Made by a program: the position numbers and the translations under genes. Positions 6,599 through 31,808 of a stretch of DNA of 32,772 nucleotides are shown one piece after another. The stretch spans positions 1 through 32,772 of the forward strand of contig JABXKB010000012.1 of the NCBI GenBank assembly GCA_013375485.1, given 5' to 3'. The notes beneath the pieces were generated by a model that did not search any database, was not told the origin of the DNA, and saw only the letters and a list, made by a program, of their open reading frames with translations. Numbering within the stretch: the stretch's first letter is position 1; every line of letters begins with the position of its first letter. This DNA is from Promethearchaeota archaeon. Its GTDB lineage: Archaea > Asgardarchaeota > Lokiarchaeia > Sigyniarchaeales > SOKP01.

Positions 6599-8044
6599 AT
6601 GGTTGAGCAACAAAATGGATTTGAAGAATTTAACTCCTTGTTTTATCCTAAACATATTGCATTTATTGGAGCATCAGAAAGCTCCAGACTTGGCTCAATG
6701 ATGTATCTACCTGCTTTTAAGGAATCTATGTGGACCAATACTTTTTACCCCGTAAATCCGAAATATGATAAAATAATTGGTTGGAAATGTTATCCTTCTG
6801 TTTTAGATGTTCCTTATCCAATCGATACAGCATATATATCCTTAAATGTAAAATTCATTCCAGAAGTTTTAAAAGAATGTGTAGAGAAAGGAATAAAATG
6901 GGTAATCATTTTTGCTTCAGGATTTTCTGAAACTGGTAATCCTGAAGGAAAACAATTAGAGTTAAATCTATTAAATATCATAAAAAACTCGAATACAAGA
7001 ATAATTGGACCAAATTGTTTAGGACCTTTAAATGCAGAAACTGGAATGGCTTTCTCATTTGCTATACAAAATGGTTTATATGGAGGTGTTTCGTTTATGT
7101 CGCAATCTGGAGGGCACTTTACTCAGTTAATGGATGTAGGTTATAAACGAGATATCAGATTGCGTTATGGTATTAGTTTCGGTAATCAGATTGATTTAAA
7201 TTGCGTTGATCTAATAAAACATTATCGGCAACATTCAAAAACAACTCTTATTGCGGCATATTTAGAATCTACGGGTTCTGCAACTGGTCACGAATTATTT
7301 TTGGAACTTAGAAAAACAACAAAAGTTAAACCAGTTATATTATGGAAGGGAGGATACACTAAAGATGGATCTCGAGCGGCTTATTCTCATACTGGGGCAA
7401 TAGCTTCAAATGATAAGATATGGAAATCAATGGCTAAACAAACAGGAACTATTCTTGTTAAAGACAATGAGGAATTTTGGAACACAATTAAAACTTTCGA
7501 GTTATTATATCCAAAAAGTTTACCAAAAGGACGAAATGTGGGAATAGTGACAGCTGGAGGAGGAAATTCAATTTTGAGTTGTGACATATTTTCTTCTTAT
7601 AATCTCAATGTGCCTGAACTAACTTCTGATTCACAATCCAAAATTGCTAAGATTTTACCAGATGTGAACATAAATATTAAAAATCCTATTGATTTAGGAG
7701 CATCGGGATTTATTTTAGATATTTTTATTAAATGTATAGAAGTAGTTATTGATGATCCAAATATTGATATAATTATTATACCTCTGTGGTCTGAACACAT
7801 CTATCGTCATGTTTTTAGCAGGATGATAAAAACATTTGAATCAACTCTAAAACCATTTGCATTTTGCTTTCCTAGCATTGCCGATGATGCTGCTCTTGCA
7901 AAGAGATTTAATTCAGCTAAGAAGTTATTACACAAGAAAAGAATTTTATATTTCTTATCTTTAAGATATGCTGCAAATAGTATATCAATGTTTTGTGACT
8001 ACATAGATTATCTGAAATCTCGAAAAGTCATAGTTACAGATTAA
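6599..8044 (+). CDS. ADP-forming acyl-CoA synthetase, alpha-type subunit
   Basis: A 481-residue protein with the three domains of the alpha half of ADP-forming acetyl-CoA synthetase: a CoA-binding Rossmann domain (FYPKHIAFIGAS, about 15-130), a first ligase domain (RIIGPNCLGPLN, MSQSGG) and a second ligase domain (NVGIVTAGGGNS onwards). His264 in SHTGAIASND is at the phosphohistidine position. The family converts acyl-CoA, ADP and phosphate to acid, CoA and ATP. No beta (ATP-grasp) subunit is adjacent; it may be encoded elsewhere. ATG start at 6599, divergent from cdhE, which makes acetyl-CoA handling plausible. Its C-terminal third has a second, broken copy at 14.5 kb. Confidence 0.88.
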   Translation: MVEQQNGFEEFNSLFYPKHIAFIGASESSRLGSMMYLPAFKESMWTNTFYPVNPKYDKIIGWKCYPSVLDVPYPIDTAYISLNVKFIPEVLKECVEKGIKWVIIFASGFSETGNPEGKQLELNLLNIIKNSNTRIIGPNCLGPLNAETGMAFSFAIQNGLYGGVSFMSQSGGHFTQLMDVGYKRDIRLRYGISFGNQIDLNCVDLIKHYRQHSKTTLIAAYLESTGSATGHELFLELRKTTKVKPVILWKGGYTKDGSRAAYSHTGAIASNDKIWKSMAKQTGTILVKDNEEFWNTIKTFELLYPKSLPKGRNVGIVTAGGGNSILSCDIFSSYNLNVPELTSDSQSKIAKILPDVNINIKNPIDLGASGFILDIFIKCIEVVIDDPNIDIIIIPLWSEHIYRHVFSRMIKTFESTLKPFAFCFPSIADDAALAKRFNSAKKLLHKKRILYFLSLRYAANSISMFCDYIDYLKSRKVIVTD

Positions 8045-10659: not shown

Positions 10660-10830
10660 TTAACCTTTTGAAAGTACGGATTTCTTATTTTCGATTATTT
10701 TTAAAACTCTATTAACGCAACCTTCTACATTATTATAAATTTGACTTCCCGTAAATCTTTGGATCTGCCAGCCTTCAGAATTAAGGAAAGCATCCCTTCG
10801 ATTATCCCTGTTAAGTCTTCCGCTCTGCTA
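10660..10830 (-). pseudogene. C-terminal piece of a DUF559/Vsr-like endonuclease
   Basis: On the minus strand a 56-codon frame, preceded by TAG and ending with TAA at 10660-10662, reads GRLNRDNRRDAFLNSEGWQI, then QRFTGSQIYNNVEGCVNRVL. The pattern R..R...L...GW.V.RF....I..N...V is the end of the core fold of DUF559 and very-short-patch-repair-like nucleases. The N-terminal catalytic part is absent. It directly adjoins the acidic ORF that begins on the other strand, so a recombination junction lies near 10830. Confidence 0.5.
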
Positions 10831-10831
10831 T

Positions 10832-11566
10832 GATTATACTCCACCCGAGCTAGAGCAAGATTCTGAGAAAGAGCCAGAAATTGAACCAGATACTGAAACA
10901 GAACAAAAATCTAAGATTACACATGAGAGTGAAATAGAAAAAGAACCGGACCAAGTTTCAGAATGCGAGTGGGAACCTATAGATTCTGAAACTGGAGAAC
11001 CAGTTCCTCATCAACCAAATCCAGACGCAATACTTCTTGAAGATTTAATTGAAGGATTAGTCAATGAACAACAAAAAAATCCAAGAGAAGAAACAGTTAC
11101 TGAACCAGAACAAGAACCTGAAATGGAATTCGAATCAAAACTTGAACGAGAGTCAGAACACACACCAGATCAAGAATTTGAGAAAGATTGGGAGTTTATT
11201 AATTATGATATAAGAGAACCAGTATTCTCTACGCCAGATCCAGAATTGAAGTCAAATGAATACCAAAAACCAGAGGAAATTTCTGAAAGCAATTCAGAGC
11301 AAGCAACTGAACAAAATTATGATCTAACACCTGAATCAGAACCGGAACAGAAACCTATTAGAACACAAGAGAAAAATCTGATTAAAGTGAAAGAACTAGA
11401 GCCAATTACTGATCCCAAGGAACTCAGGGACTATAAACATTATGAATACGAGCATGCTATTAAAAACAAGAATGATTATAAACATGAGCAAGAACCATCG
11501 AAAGAAACTGAAGAAAGCAAGAAAACCGTTAAAAAACAAAAGAAGAAGCCAAAGGAATTAAAATAA
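10832..11566 (+). CDS. Acidic Glu/Pro-rich ORF, 5' end unclear; probably the N-terminal part of the HNH protein
   Basis: An open frame of 244 codons with strongly biased composition: repeated PEPE, PEQEPE and ESEPEQ units, almost no hydrophobic clusters, then a Lys-rich end (KKTVKKQKKKPKELK). It has no in-frame ATG before 11123 and the open frame runs into the DUF559-like fragment, so the true start is unknown or lost. It ends at TAA 11564-11566. The next frame-compatible codons continue without another stop into the HNH protein at 11621, with similar Lys/Glu-rich sequence between. The simplest reading is one long ancestral gene of about 1,200 codons now split by a single TAA. Likely disordered. 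Confidence 0.6.
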   Translation, partial: DYTPPELEQDSEKEPEIEPDTETEQKSKITHESEIEKEPDQVSECEWEPIDSETGEPVPHQPNPDAILLEDLIEGLVNEQQKNPREETVTEPEQEPEMEFESKLERESEHTPDQEFEKDWEFINYDIREPVFSTPDPELKSNEYQKPEEISESNSEQATEQNYDLTPESEPEQKPIRTQEKNLIKVKELEPITDPKELRDYKHYEYEHAIKNKNDYKHEQEPSKETEESKKTVKKQKKKPKELK

Positions 11567-11620
11567 GAAATTTCAATAACAGATTTTAAAGTTGGAAAAT
11601 CTGAAACGCAAACTGAGAAA

Positions 11621-14422
11621 TTGGATAATAAGATTTTAAAGAAGGAAAGTAAGCCACAAGAAACTGTCCAAAAAAATGAAGTTGAGAAATCAAAAGAAAT
11701 TGGGGACATAAAAAATGAATCTAAAGAACTTAAACATCTTTTAAGTAATAAAATTGAATCCAAAAAAACTATAAAGCAGAAACAAGCACAAATTAAAAGA
11801 AAAATAGAAAAACAAGAAGCTCAGGAATCTGATAAAAATTCAGAACCCGAATTTATAAAAAGATATCGTCAGGAAACAGGTAAGAGACCATTTTATAGAG
11901 GTGAAAAAACAAAAGGATTTTTAGAATGGTTGAAAAAACAAAAAGAAAAAGAAGAAGAACAACAAGAAGAGATAAGTGAAAAATCAGGAGAAGTTCAAGG
12001 AAATGATGAACACGAATGGACTTCATTATTAGAGGAATGGATTAATAGACAAGATATTTCAGAAGAAATTAAAACTGAATTATTGGAAAAACTAAAGAAA
12101 TATTATAAATATAGAGAATACTATCGGCTGCGAAATCACTTAATTGAAAAATTCCATGAGCGTCATCAAGAGAATGTTCAAGATCCTTATCAATATACCA
12201 ATAAAGAAAAAGAATTGTTAGAATTAATAATTAATCTAACCAAAAAACTTAACCAAATAAAGCCTGTAGAAAATACCCTTTTTCAAAAATTTAAAAAATT
12301 CCGAGACTTTTACAATAAAAGTCATAAAACGCATAAAGAAAAGATTAAGGCGCAAGAAAAGCAATTTATTCGTCATTTAGCCGAATTATATGAAAATTTT
12401 CAACTAATTTGGAAGGAGCTTTTAAATAAAAATTTATATAAATCTACAGAAATGACCTTGAAAGAAAAATCAAAAGTTCGTAAAATTATTGAAAAAGAAA
12501 TCCTTACTGAAGAAGAACAAAAAGAATTAATATCAATACTAAGTAAACTTCCTTCTGAAGAATTGAATATATTATTAGGCTTAAAGTATAAACTCCACAC
12601 ACAAAATTACGTTAAATGGGGTAGGGATTATGATATTGGAGTTAAAAAGCTAATGCTAAATAAACATTTAAAGAGAAATATTACATTATCTCAAAAATTA
12701 TTGAATACCAAGAGAGAAAATCCGTTAAATTTTACTAAACAAGAGTTTGATTTCTTTAATAAGTACAATTTAGAATTCAAGAGATTTGAATCTCGATGGG
12801 TATGGATGGAGTTATATCCAGATTTGATTCCAATTTTCTTTAAGGAATTTTTGTTTCCAATATATAATCGTGATCCGTCTGTACGTGAATTATATAATTT
12901 AGGATTCGGTAATTTTTCAAATAAACTTAAAAAAGTCTTAGGGATGCCATACGGTCAATGGAAAGAAGAACAAGGATATTATGATTTTAAAAAATGTACT
13001 CGGTGTGGTAATTTTTTACCAAATGAAAAATTTGAAAGGTTAAGAGGACATGAAGAGCAAAAACGAGGGGCATATAGAAGTATGTGTATAAATTGCAGAA
13101 ACGATGTAAGACGAATATCAATTTATAATAAAAAATATCGCTTAATTAAGGATTATCTCGGTGGAAAATGCCATGATTGTGGTGAAGATTTGACAGTATT
13201 AGATGGATACGAGTTTCACCATTTATATCCAGAACTTAAAACTGCTACTTGGCGTGAAATGAAAGAAAAAAGTTATAAAGAAATTGTTCAATGGGCATTT
13301 AACGATAGAATTATTCCTTTATGTGGAAATTGTCATGCTAAAAGAACAGCTACAGTTTTTTCATTACAAAAAGAATTAATTCTTCTTGAAAAGATATTTA
13401 GTTTTTCACCGCTAGATATAGATAACTTAATTTCAGAAAAAATTAAAGAGCAGATAGATCAAATGAGAAGCGGTAAGAATCAAATAAAAAAATGGATAAG
13501 AAAAAGATTCATCTATACAGAATTGTTTTTTGGTAAATGTATAGGATGCGGTAAAATTACTGTCTATAATAATTTACCAGCATTGCAATTACATCATTTA
13601 TTTCCTGAACTTTTAGAAGTGAAGAATAAGTGGTATGATCTTGCTGATTTTGATTGTGAAATCATTATGGATATTATAATAAAAGAGCGTTGTGTTGGGA
13701 TATGTTCTAACTGCCATTCAGTAATAGGATCAAGATTTCAAGAAGTGGTTGAAGAAATAGTAAACGATTCAGAGTTTATATCACATGTAAAAATTAAATA
13801 TAAAACTATAACAGAAAGAATTAATGCTTTTCGAATCGATATGAAAAAGATAAATTTTAGATCTCCATTAAAATTACCTATAACGGAGGAATATATTGAA
13901 AAAGCTATTAGTACCATTTTTAAAAATCTAGATTTAAACATTCATCAACTTGAAAAAGAATATCTGAATAAACTTAAAAATAGATGTTATGAAATATTAC
14001 AACAGATACCCTTAGAAGATAGGAGTTTACGAGATCCATATGTATTGTCTGGTGTTACCATTTATCTAGCAGATAGATTAATTGCTATAGAATCAGGCTT
14101 TAAACCTTTTTTAACTCAGAATCTAATCTCTAAAATTTTAAATATCGATAGATCCAATTTTTCCGATATATATAATAATTTCCTTACACCAAAATTTTTA
14201 AATACTAAACAAATTGAATATGATAGAATTATTGAATATTTAAAAATTCAAGGTAAAGCATCAAGACAAGAAATTGGTAATTTAATTGGTAGAAGTCTAA
14301 AGCCAACATATAGAAGATTATTAGAGTTAGAAAAATTAGGTTTAATTAAGAGAGAAAGAAATAATCCTATTTCAAATATTTCAGGTAAAGGATCATCATA
14401 TACTTATTGGTTGATTGCTTAA
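11621..14422 (+). CDS. Double-HNH protein with TFB-like cyclin fold and C-terminal winged helix
   Basis: 933 residues from TTG 11621 (weak ribosome site). Order: Lys/Glu coiled-coil region (1-330); helical linker; a four-cysteine zinc knuckle (Cys459, Cys462, Cys489, Cys492); HNH unit 1 (Cys517-x2-Cys520, His533-His534, Cys568-x2-Cys571-His572); HNH unit 2 (Cys640-x2-Cys643, His658-His659, Cys695-x2-Cys698-His699); an all-helical region (about 750-860) whose RDPYVLSGVTIYLADRL and LTQNLISKILNIDRSNFSDIY parallel a TFB cyclin repeat; and a winged helix (867-933, ASRQEIGNLIGRSLKPTYRR). HNH domains cut DNA with a metal; TFB folds and winged helices bind DNA. The function is not known to me. It lies in an accessory region and shares its frame with the acidic ORF upstream. 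It could be a selfish nuclease, a defence protein or a regulator. Confidence 0.8.
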   Translation: MDNKILKKESKPQETVQKNEVEKSKEIGDIKNESKELKHLLSNKIESKKTIKQKQAQIKRKIEKQEAQESDKNSEPEFIKRYRQETGKRPFYRGEKTKGFLEWLKKQKEKEEEQQEEISEKSGEVQGNDEHEWTSLLEEWINRQDISEEIKTELLEKLKKYYKYREYYRLRNHLIEKFHERHQENVQDPYQYTNKEKELLELIINLTKKLNQIKPVENTLFQKFKKFRDFYNKSHKTHKEKIKAQEKQFIRHLAELYENFQLIWKELLNKNLYKSTEMTLKEKSKVRKIIEKEILTEEEQKELISILSKLPSEELNILLGLKYKLHTQNYVKWGRDYDIGVKKLMLNKHLKRNITLSQKLLNTKRENPLNFTKQEFDFFNKYNLEFKRFESRWVWMELYPDLIPIFFKEFLFPIYNRDPSVRELYNLGFGNFSNKLKKVLGMPYGQWKEEQGYYDFKKCTRCGNFLPNEKFERLRGHEEQKRGAYRSMCINCRNDVRRISIYNKKYRLIKDYLGGKCHDCGEDLTVLDGYEFHHLYPELKTATWREMKEKSYKEIVQWAFNDRIIPLCGNCHAKRTATVFSLQKELILLEKIFSFSPLDIDNLISEKIKEQIDQMRSGKNQIKKWIRKRFIYTELFFGKCIGCGKITVYNNLPALQLHHLFPELLEVKNKWYDLADFDCEIIMDIIIKERCVGICSNCHSVIGSRFQEVVEEIVNDSEFISHVKIKYKTITERINAFRIDMKKINFRSPLKLPITEEYIEKAISTIFKNLDLNIHQLEKEYLNKLKNRCYEILQQIPLEDRSLRDPYVLSGVTIYLADRLIAIESGFKPFLTQNLISKILNIDRSNFSDIYNNFLTPKFLNTKQIEYDRIIEYLKIQGKASRQEIGNLIGRSLKPTYRRLLELEKLGLIKRERNNPISNISGKGSSYTYWLIA

Positions 14423-14480
14423 ATATTAATCTTTATTATTATTCTCTCTTTATATTGCTATAAAATAATCAAAATTTAAA

Positions 14481-14960
14481 TGTTCTGTTAATATAACAGA
14501 TTTATTTGCTTCTCAAAATCTCAATATACATGAATTGACTCCTGAATCACAATCTAAAATTGCTCAAATATTACCGTACGTTAATGTAAGCATTAAAAAT
14601 CCTGTTGATTTAGGGGCATCAGGGTTTATTTTAAACACTTATATAAAATGTATAGAAATTGTGGTTAATGATCCTAACATAGATATTGTCATAATACCTC
14701 TTTGGCCAGATCATATTTATCGTCATGTTTTTAATAGGATGATTAGAATTTTTGAATCAACTTCAAAACCATTTGCATTTTGTTTGCCAAATATTGCTGA
14801 TGATAGCGATCTCGCAAAAAGATTTAATTCTGCAAAAAAATTATTACACAAGAAAAGAGTTCTCTATTTCTTATCTTTAAGAGATGCAGCAAAGAGCATT
14901 TCGCTTTTTTGCAATTATTTTGAATTTCTAAAATCTCATAATATTCTTAATAGGAAATGA
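14481..14960 (+). pseudogene. 5'-truncated second copy of the acyl-CoA synthetase alpha gene
   Basis: The frame from about 14481 reads DLFASQNLNIHELTPESQSK and onwards, aligning without gaps to the last third of the protein at 6599-8044 (from its DIFSSYNLN to the end). Roughly three quarters of residues are identical, and differences are mostly conservative or third-position changes. The CoA-binding domain and the phosphohistidine region are missing. The first start codon would be TTG at 14535. It looks like the remains of a tandem paralogue whose 5' part was replaced by the inserted material upstream. It might still express a 141-residue ligase-domain fragment. Confidence 0.85.
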
Positions 14961-22572: not shown

Positions 22573-22710
22573 ATGGAATCAGCAATTTTTTATTTTTATT
22601 GATATATTTTGTTACCTCTAAAGAATGAATTATATAAAACTTAAAAAATTTATCTTTAGGCGTAAGAAATTATACAAATAAATAATAATAGGGTCAATTT
22701 TATAAACTAA

Positions 22711-29596: not shown

Positions 29597-30067
29597 TTAT
29601 TGTATACTCATAGAATCAGATCTAAATAATTCCTTCATTTCTTTTCCAAGTTCTGCTTGATTGACCTGTAAGTATCTATCTAAGATGGATTCAAGCATAG
29701 GACCCCATTTTTTCATAGTCGCTCTTATAAATCCTATTTGTGCATTTTTATCAGCTACAATACACAACACTCCTTTGCCAACTTTCATTGAAAATATCAT
29801 CCCTTCAAGATATTCTGTTATCTGAAGATTAATAGATCCATAACCTAAAATGTATCCTTGTTCCTCACCAGCGACAAATACAGCACTTCCAATTGCGCCA
29901 ATCTTCTCTACAGAAATCCCATTATTAACAGAAAATTTAAATTTAGATTGACTTAAAATAGTAATTCCTGTATCATCGGTTAAAAGAGCATACTTTAATC
30001 CGGGGGCACTATTGATAATTGTAGTTAAAATCTTTTTTAATCTAATCTCGTCCTCGGAATAACTCAA
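29597..30067 (-). CDS. Roadblock/LC7-domain protein
   Basis: 156 residues, TTG start at 30067. Residues about 6-125 follow the Roadblock/LC7 (MglB-like) pattern: opening helix (RLKKILTTIINSAPGLKYAL), strand pair TDDTGITILSQ, the long helix around GISVEKIGAIGSAVFVAGEE, strands GYGSINLQITEYLEGMIFSM and VLCIVADKNAQIG, then a closing helix. Roadblock proteins dimerise and regulate small GTPases; Asgard genomes carry many. A charged C-terminal helix extends beyond the domain. No GTPase gene is present nearby. Confidence 0.85.
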   Translation of the reverse strand: MSYSEDEIRLKKILTTIINSAPGLKYALLTDDTGITILSQSKFKFSVNNGISVEKIGAIGSAVFVAGEEQGYILGYGSINLQITEYLEGMIFSMKVGKGVLCIVADKNAQIGFIRATMKKWGPMLESILDRYLQVNQAELGKEMKELFRSDSMSIQ

Positions 30068-30830: not shown

Positions 30831-31808
30831 TTATTTATGGTTTTTCTTTAACGATATTCCAAGGTTAAGATTTTCTACAAGTTCACTGAAGCGATTACGG
30901 ACTGTCACTTCAGTTACACAACTTATACGCGCTATTTTCCTTTGAGTTCTTCGTTCATTGGTTAAAATACATGAAGCATAAATAGCAGCAGCACATACTC
31001 CTGTTGGACCTCTTCCGGAAGTTAATCCACGTACTTCTGCCATCCTAATTATCATTTTTGCTGTTTTTTGACATTTTGTAGGTAATTCTAACTCTGAAAT
31101 AAATCTTGTGAGGTAATCCATTGGTCTAGTTGGATTTAATTCAAGCGACAATTCATATGATATAAATCTAAAAGATCGACCAATTTCTTTCTTGTCAACA
31201 CGAGCAACTTCAGCTATCTCGTTTAAAGTACGTGGAACTTTATACATTCTGCAAGCGGCATATAAACTGGCAGCAGCCACCCCCTCTATACTTCTACCGC
31301 GAATTAAATGTGCTTCAACAGCATCTCGATATATTTTAGCTGAGCACTCTCGTAAATTTTTTTGGAGATCTAAATTTGAAGCCATGCGATCAAGTTCACT
31401 TAAAGCAAATGTGAGATTCCTTTCAGTTGCATCAGATACTCTAATACGACTTTGCCACTTACGAAGTCTATATATTTGTCCCCTTAATTTAGCAGGTATT
31501 TCCTTGCCAAAGATATCTCTATTCTTCCAATCTATCATTGTACTAAGTCCTTTATCGTGTATCATATAAGTCATTGGAGCACCAGTTCTTGTTCTCTTCT
31601 TTTTCTGATCTGCATCAAAAGCTCTCCATTCTGGTCCACTATCAATATGATTCTCTGAATGAACTAAACCACATTCTTCACAAACTATTAATCCTCTATT
31701 TTCATCAAAAAATATATTTTTTCCACATTCAATACATATCTCATTTTCAGAATTTATGTTTTCTTCTGATTCTGATTTCACTTCTTTCCAATTTGAAATA
31801 AAATACAC
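30831..31808 (-). CDS. tfb: Transcription initiation factor TFB
   Basis: 325 residues. N-terminal zinc ribbon Cys25-x2-Cys28-x14-Cys43-x2-Cys46; B-reader/linker [19 protein letters not shown] (about 58-76); two cyclin repeats, the first with [18 protein letters not shown] and the second with [18 protein letters not shown]; and the recognition helix [12 protein letters not shown] that contacts the BRE element. It recruits RNA polymerase to TATA-TBP. GTG start at 31808. It lies 47 bases behind gar1, a gene order known from many archaea, and both are probably co-transcribed. Confidence 0.96.

Follow-up and report, generated by a model that had tools for sequence, protein, structure and literature searches.

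The core of archaeal TFB and TFIIB (PDB 1d3u, 1ais, 5wh1) is the closest described counterpart to one part of the protein reported here, which is homologous to it over the whole second cyclin repeat and shows cyclin-like helices in a predicted model. In contrast to that core, the protein has one repeat instead of two, neither a zinc ribbon nor a B-linker, and a changed recognition helix, and its repeat is joined to HNH units and a winged helix. Another part resembles zinc HNH endonucleases with an N-terminal four-cysteine knuckle (phage-type enzymes and McrA, PDB 6ghc), with which it shares the CxxC, HH and CxxCH motifs and the beta-beta-alpha fold; here, however, the HNH units stand in tandem, and the histidine at position +4 is missing in unit 1 and replaced by glycine in unit 2.

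The family to which the protein belongs exchanges the same nuclease classes as modular homing endonucleases (LAGLIDADG, HNH, EDxHD) behind a shared N-terminus, with helix-turn-helix (HTH) or zinc modules attached, although no intron, intein or homing site has been identified for it. We know of no homing endonuclease with a giant acidic N-terminus and a HerA-like ATPase as partner. Polymorphic toxin systems, reviewed in PMC3482391, are like this family in having a shared N-terminus, exchangeable C-terminal nucleases and a gene paired with an ATPase. They differ from it in that the C-termini of the family are of the homing type, and an unsystematic look noticed no immunity gene or secretion signal.

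The protein is encoded in a window of 32,772 nucleotides, the whole stretch of DNA that was analysed, at positions 1 to 32,772 of the forward strand of contig JABXKB010000012.1 (GenBank assembly GCA_013375485.1). The source genome, here called G000, is a Lokiarchaeal metagenome-assembled genome of 4.6 Mb in 457 contigs, with a contamination estimate of 9%.

Architecture of the fusion protein

A sequence-only reading of this DNA had placed a zinc knuckle, two HNH units, a TFB cyclin repeat and a winged helix in one ORF with a TTG start (plus strand, 933 aa), and both the ORF and the presence of all these parts within it were confirmed. The features of the gene and its surroundings are as follows.

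10778..11122, plus strand: acidic N-terminal region, an in-frame coding remnant (GC by codon position 0.63/0.34/0.18)
11123..11566, plus strand: 147-aa ORF in frame with the 933-aa ORF, closing with TAA at 11564-11566
11621..14422, plus strand: 933-aa ORF of the fusion protein, TTG start, frame open from 11567
11621..12715, plus strand: N-terminal module (residues 1-365), common to many giant Lokiarchaeal proteins with differing nuclease C-termini
11858..11941, plus strand: motif IKRYRQETGKRPFYRGEKTKGFLEWLKK (residues ~80-107), also in the C-tail of a conserved 261-aa membrane protein
12716..12985, plus strand: repeat module (residues 366-455), present in four copies in locus L175
12995..13096, plus strand: four-Cys zinc knuckle C459/C462/C489/C492, from the sequence and the family alignment
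13169..13348, plus strand: HNH unit 1 (residues 517-576) with C517/C520, H533/H534, C568/C571, H572, and T576 at +4
13538..13729, plus strand: HNH unit 2 (residues 640-703) with C640/C643, H658/H659, C695/C698, H699, and G703
13874..14212, plus strand: TFB second cyclin repeat (residues 752-864), from profile, hhalign, phylum search and AlphaFold/Foldseek
14147..14173, plus strand: TFB recognition-helix region, DRSNFSDIY (AEYSIRDHY in most TFBs of the divergent type)
14216..14419, plus strand: C-terminal winged helix (residues 866-933; Pfam HTH_24 4e-5, CasR/Csa3 wHTH 1.5e-4 to 4e-4)
14499..14948, plus strand: C-terminal third of the ACD alpha-like CoA-ligase gene (6599-8044), duplicated and truncated (78.6% DNA, 72.7% protein identity)
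30831-31808, minus strand: the window TFB (Pfam TFIIB 3e-46), carrying the peptides quoted by the sequence-only reading

Searches of Pfam, NCBIfam and PDB sequences with the whole protein gave chance matches only, the winged helix excepted. The join of TFB and HNH parts, which had been proposed as undescribed, was found neither in the literature searched nor in any other Asgard case among the matches listed. In particular, no other TFB-HNH fusion appeared among the matches listed when 79 genomes from the order and 228 from the phylum were searched, and among those listed for the 228 Asgard genomes the window stood alone in carrying a TFB-repeat match in an open frame longer than 425 aa; the phylum search scored the best candidates per genome. 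A search of phage GenBank entries gave 0 matches. The TFB-HNH architecture is thus real and, as far as searched, new.

Zinc knuckle and HNH doublet

All the cysteine and histidine pairs listed above for the two HNH units lie at the residues where they had been reported, and H572 and H699 complete the CxxCH motifs, so that both units carry the zinc-type pattern CxxC...HH...CxxCH. The beta-beta-alpha metal fold, on which the sequence-only reading had staked its HNH assignment, was predicted by AlphaFold for both (pLDDT >90). The profile of unit 2 matches McrA (6ghc) with an E-value of 0.0044, and Pfam HNH/HNH_2 matches in members of the HNH-doublet family are weak (best 0.00057). Knuckle and doublet together show 24 invariant columns in an alignment of ten sequences, and the doublet is conserved over 17 aligned sequences. 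At the +4 position of unit 2, 11 of these 17 sequences have histidine and the window copy has Gly703; in unit 1 the histidine is missing in nearly all family members, T576 standing there in the window copy. In EndoVII-type enzymes this metal-site residue may be dispensable.

A scan of 84,980 genomes returned 20 relatives of the knuckle and doublet, 18 of them Lokiarchaeal and two of them weak matches elsewhere. The HNH doublet is a Lokiarchaeal family, whose members are free-standing or form the end of giant acidic proteins. Since homologues of the knuckle plus HNH occur on viral contigs, that part is ordinary and it is the tandem arrangement that is the family's own.

A TFB second cyclin repeat behind the HNH units

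Several lines of comparison identify residues 752-864 as a second cyclin repeat of TFB. Over their full length they align with the final ~110 residues of the 340-360-aa TFBs of related genomes, and residues 754-862 match TFB-like ORFs of such genomes with E-values down to ~1e-16. A TFB profile run with hmmsearch against the fusion protein gave 9e-18, and hhalign to TFB repeat II gave 8.8e-19 at a probability of 99.1. The phylum search with the TFB-repeat profile gave 4e-41 for the window protein, which is itself a row of that profile. Within residues 750-860, where the sequence-only reading had tied its claim to a cyclin fold, AlphaFold placed helices consistent with a cyclin repeat at residues ~756-854 (pLDDT ~67-85), and in the models the winged helix (residues 866-933) consists of helices and two strands. 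Foldseek of the model of residues 745-933, which had TFB rows in its modelling alignment, ranked TFIIB and cyclins on top with a weak E-value of 0.17. The 483-aa model gave no meaningful Foldseek match, probably because the relative placement of its domains is undefined. An alignment that mixed TFB and HNH rows put the TFB rows wrongly and was left out of folding, and a TFB profile match at residues 706-752 was distrusted because the HNH family alignment covers the same stretch.

Only repeat II aligns confidently; the zinc ribbon, the B-linker and the first cyclin repeat of TFB are absent from the fusion protein. Likeness to a TFB second cyclin repeat, drawn earlier from comparison with the window TFB, therefore stands, but the window TFB is not the nearest type. 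Closer is a divergent TFB of the same genome (G000:C407, 345 aa; PF00382 8e-7, TFIIB zinc ribbon 4e-5). In a phylogenetic tree the TFB piece groups with the TFBs of its own genus (support 92/94) on a very long branch (3.48), a pattern which suggests that it was taken up within the genus and then changed rapidly. The recognition helix AEYSIRDHY is nearly invariant in the divergent TFB type and reads DRSNFSDIY in the fusion protein. There, the position of the BRE-reading arginine, which we take to be R286 of human TFIIB, is occupied by Ser848, and the conserved arginine is not kept. The earlier suggestion of a promoter-targeted nuclease is weakened by this change of helix and by the restriction to repeat II, and TBP-dependent promoter targeting by the fusion protein appears unlikely. 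The viral contig L202 (IMGVR_UViG_3300029813_000075, 76 kb) also encodes a TFB of this divergent type, with 337 residues and 28% identity.

The window protein has the TFB repeat directly after HNH unit 2 and the winged helix behind it. HNH-doublet relatives, such as L065, L067, L184 and L185, have a winged-helix-like segment straight after unit 2 and no TFB part, and for this reason the repeat looks like a recruited DNA-binding module. The arrangement is most simply read as recruitment, as a further module of this kind, of the TFB repeat, a DNA binder with an HTH of its own. Homology between a second winged helix in L064 and that of the window protein was dropped because BLAST gave no alignment.

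State and surroundings of the window copy

Codon-position bias indicates that the coding frame reaches upstream of 11621, beyond the in-frame TAA, to about 10778. Homology to relatives begins at ~10832-10853 (L200 aligns from 10832 in blastn, L013 across 10853-12715 in tblastn), and the L013 tblastn alignment runs unbroken over the TAA. No start codon was found in the remnant at 10778..11122. Past the TAA 951 codons are open, with codon-position bias kept throughout, and the TFB piece has 0 stops in 113 codons where ~11 are expected from base composition. Past selection is therefore likely, and since the TFB piece has changed so much without acquiring a stop, selection for most of its history is implied.

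A HerA-like ATPase gene, sought in the window and in the whole of genome G000, is absent. Because this gene and the normal 5' end are missing, and because of the TAA and of Gly703 in HNH unit 2, present activity is uncertain; the TAA, the missing 5' end and the lack of an ATPase in the genome likewise call expression into question. With the ATPase missing and the gene truncated at its 5' end, the window copy has either been exapted or is beginning to decay. The fusion gene is free-standing, with a transposase-like fragment in its 5' flank and the truncated CoA-ligase duplicate directly after it, and no target site, intron, intein or insertion relation was found for it.

A family of giant proteins with interchangeable ends

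Residues 22-364 of the window protein are 41% identical to L013. The same N-terminus is fused to LAGLIDADG_3 in L154, L155, L162, L165 and L171, to HNH doublets in L184, L185, L158 and L179, to HTH arrays in L159, and to DUF4379/CapR treble-clef repeats in L164 and L160; by our own reading of their sequences, where Pfam gives no match, the last two may also carry a nuclease-like region. Genome G017 holds at least nine giant genes of the nuclease family, many of which stop at contig ends, as expected of multi-copy genes. The combination of shared N-terminus and nuclease C-terminus that marks the family is also found in the window protein.

A survey of the neighbours of Asgard homologues, one of the checks named by the sequence-only reading, placed a HerA-like ATPase gene beside several giant genes. 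This HerA/VirB4-like gene, with a C-terminal zinc ribbon, lies directly upstream in L195, L196, L200, L197 and L176; in G004:C76 and G006:C35 its adjacency follows from the coordinates, and G011 retains a remnant. Its best match in the defence libraries is PADLOC mad8 (2.5e-14), and it matches HerA at 2.9e-6. One ATPase-nuclease cassette adjoins Cas6/Csm6 genes. The literature searched held no description of a HerA-like ATPase paired with a giant nuclease, nor of a system in which such an ATPase accompanies giant acidic proteins whose ends alternate between LAGLIDADG, HNH and treble-clef nucleases, a finding that holds whatever the state of the window copy.

The two-gene cassettes (L195:9560-15704, L196:8897-14465, L200:6860-13355, L197:11742-17997 and L176) consist of an ATPase gene of ~690-720 aa with the giant nuclease downstream, and in L200 a membrane protein gene and genes of 484 and 821 aa lie further upstream. 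The giant genes of L184/L193, L185/L195 and L165/L196 have an apparent ATT start after a conserved GAGGAGATTATCTATTAGTGAATC, no ATG, GTG or TTG opening the frame there. In three genomes (L193/L194, L195, L198) the same dihydrolipoamide dehydrogenase-like gene adjoins family nuclease genes, a possible insertion hot spot. The 261-aa membrane protein (L173:1363-2145, L174:875-1651) shares the motif YxxETGxxxxxxxxxTxGYxxW in its C-tail with the N-terminal module of the giant proteins, and L175:1399-4044 encodes an 882-aa protein that combines its copies of the 366-455 repeat with an RNase_T exonuclease domain (1.5e-11).

Interpretation

We hold with moderate confidence that the fusion protein is an orphan member of a family of Lokiarchaeal site-specific nucleases, modular and homing-type; in it, a TFB repeat captured from its own genus probably serves as a DNA-binding targeting module, and the protein is perhaps no longer active. 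The TFB homology and its same-genus place in the tree, the conserved HNH doublet, the interchangeable nuclease ends and the adjacent ATPase genes all count for this explanation, as do the stop-free TFB piece and the retained codon-position bias. Against it count the occurrence in one genome only, the +4 residues of both HNH units, the single TFB repeat without its original recognition-helix sequence, for which DNA binding is a prediction, the in-frame TAA, the missing 5' end, the lack of a genomic ATPase and of any target site or intron or insertion relation. Mechanistically, a TFB second cyclin repeat would have been captured from a TFB of the same genus and placed between HNH unit 2 and the C-terminal winged helix. 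The TFB domain would bind DNA as an HTH, making contact by the helix that corresponds to BH5' of TFIIB. The HNH doublet would nick or cut near the bound site, and the break may act in mobility or conflict, a function tied to the HerA-like ATPase where the cassette is intact. The earlier idea of a mobile or defence nuclease gains support in that the parent family is made up of giant proteins whose homing-type nuclease modules are interchangeable, several of these proteins being encoded beside a HerA-like ATPase.

Decay of the window copy is a serious rival, possible though doubtful: the gene, a fragment in decay from a HerA-nuclease cassette, would have gained its TFB piece by illegitimate recombination and would have no present function. 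Its 5' truncation, TAA, lack of a usual start and missing ATPase fit such a fate, as do the adjoining truncated CoA-ligase duplicate and transposase fragment, Gly703 and the long branch of the TFB piece. However, the frame has stayed open past the stop with its codon bias, the zinc cysteines and histidines are all kept, as are the predicted cyclin and HNH folds, and the strong divergence of the stop-free TFB piece implies that it was under selection during most of its history.

The non-cutting regulator, also proposed by the sequence-only reading, keeps some weight through Gly703. Yet we regard it as unlikely that the protein is such a regulator or a TFB decoy, whose TFB repeat and winged helix would bind DNA or the basal transcription machinery and whose HNH units would serve as scaffolds that bind zinc. 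The nearest relatives of the winged helix are Csa3/CasR-type regulators, and the last histidine is lacking in HNH unit 1 and replaced by glycine in unit 2 of the window copy; yet the TFB parts that contact RNA polymerase and TBP (zinc ribbon, B-linker, repeat I) are absent, relatives with the same doublet have no TFB part, and the other C-termini of the family are nucleases. Quite unlikely, too, is a conflict effector, in which the HerA-like ATPase and polymorphic nuclease would act in defence or antagonism and the TFB repeat would aim the nuclease at viral promoters with host-like TFB sites. The mad8 and HerA matches, the variable nuclease ends, the cassette beside Cas6/Csm6 genes and the TFB on the viral contig speak for such a role, but the window copy has neither the ATPase nor a recognised defence gene beside it, LAGLIDADG modules belong typically to homing, not to defence, and the recognition helix of the TFB piece is altered. 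That an HNH gene and a TFB gene were joined artificially in the metagenome bin is very improbable: despite the single occurrence and the fragmented, partly contaminated assembly, the TFB piece shares no more than ~33-46% identity with any TFB found, where a chimera would be expected to lie close to a real TFB gene, and it is in frame on both sides, the winged helix continuing in the same frame.

Returning to the modular, homing-type nuclease, an active protein would mean that a basal transcription factor can be split into modules and reused to aim a nuclease, and would link how promoter recognition evolved with how mobile nucleases did, in the archaeal group nearest to eukaryotes. More tentatively, a general transcription factor repeat may serve as an exchangeable nuclease-targeting module in an undescribed archaeal system of HerA-like ATPases and giant proteins with interchangeable homing-type ends.

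Two further elements were observed in the window. A 27-bp repeat in the spacer after the fusion gene (14467-14493) recurs inverted at 29923-29949 with 92.6% identity, and a self-complementary palindrome of ~100 bp, with arms 75% identical, lies between two genes at 22590-22688.
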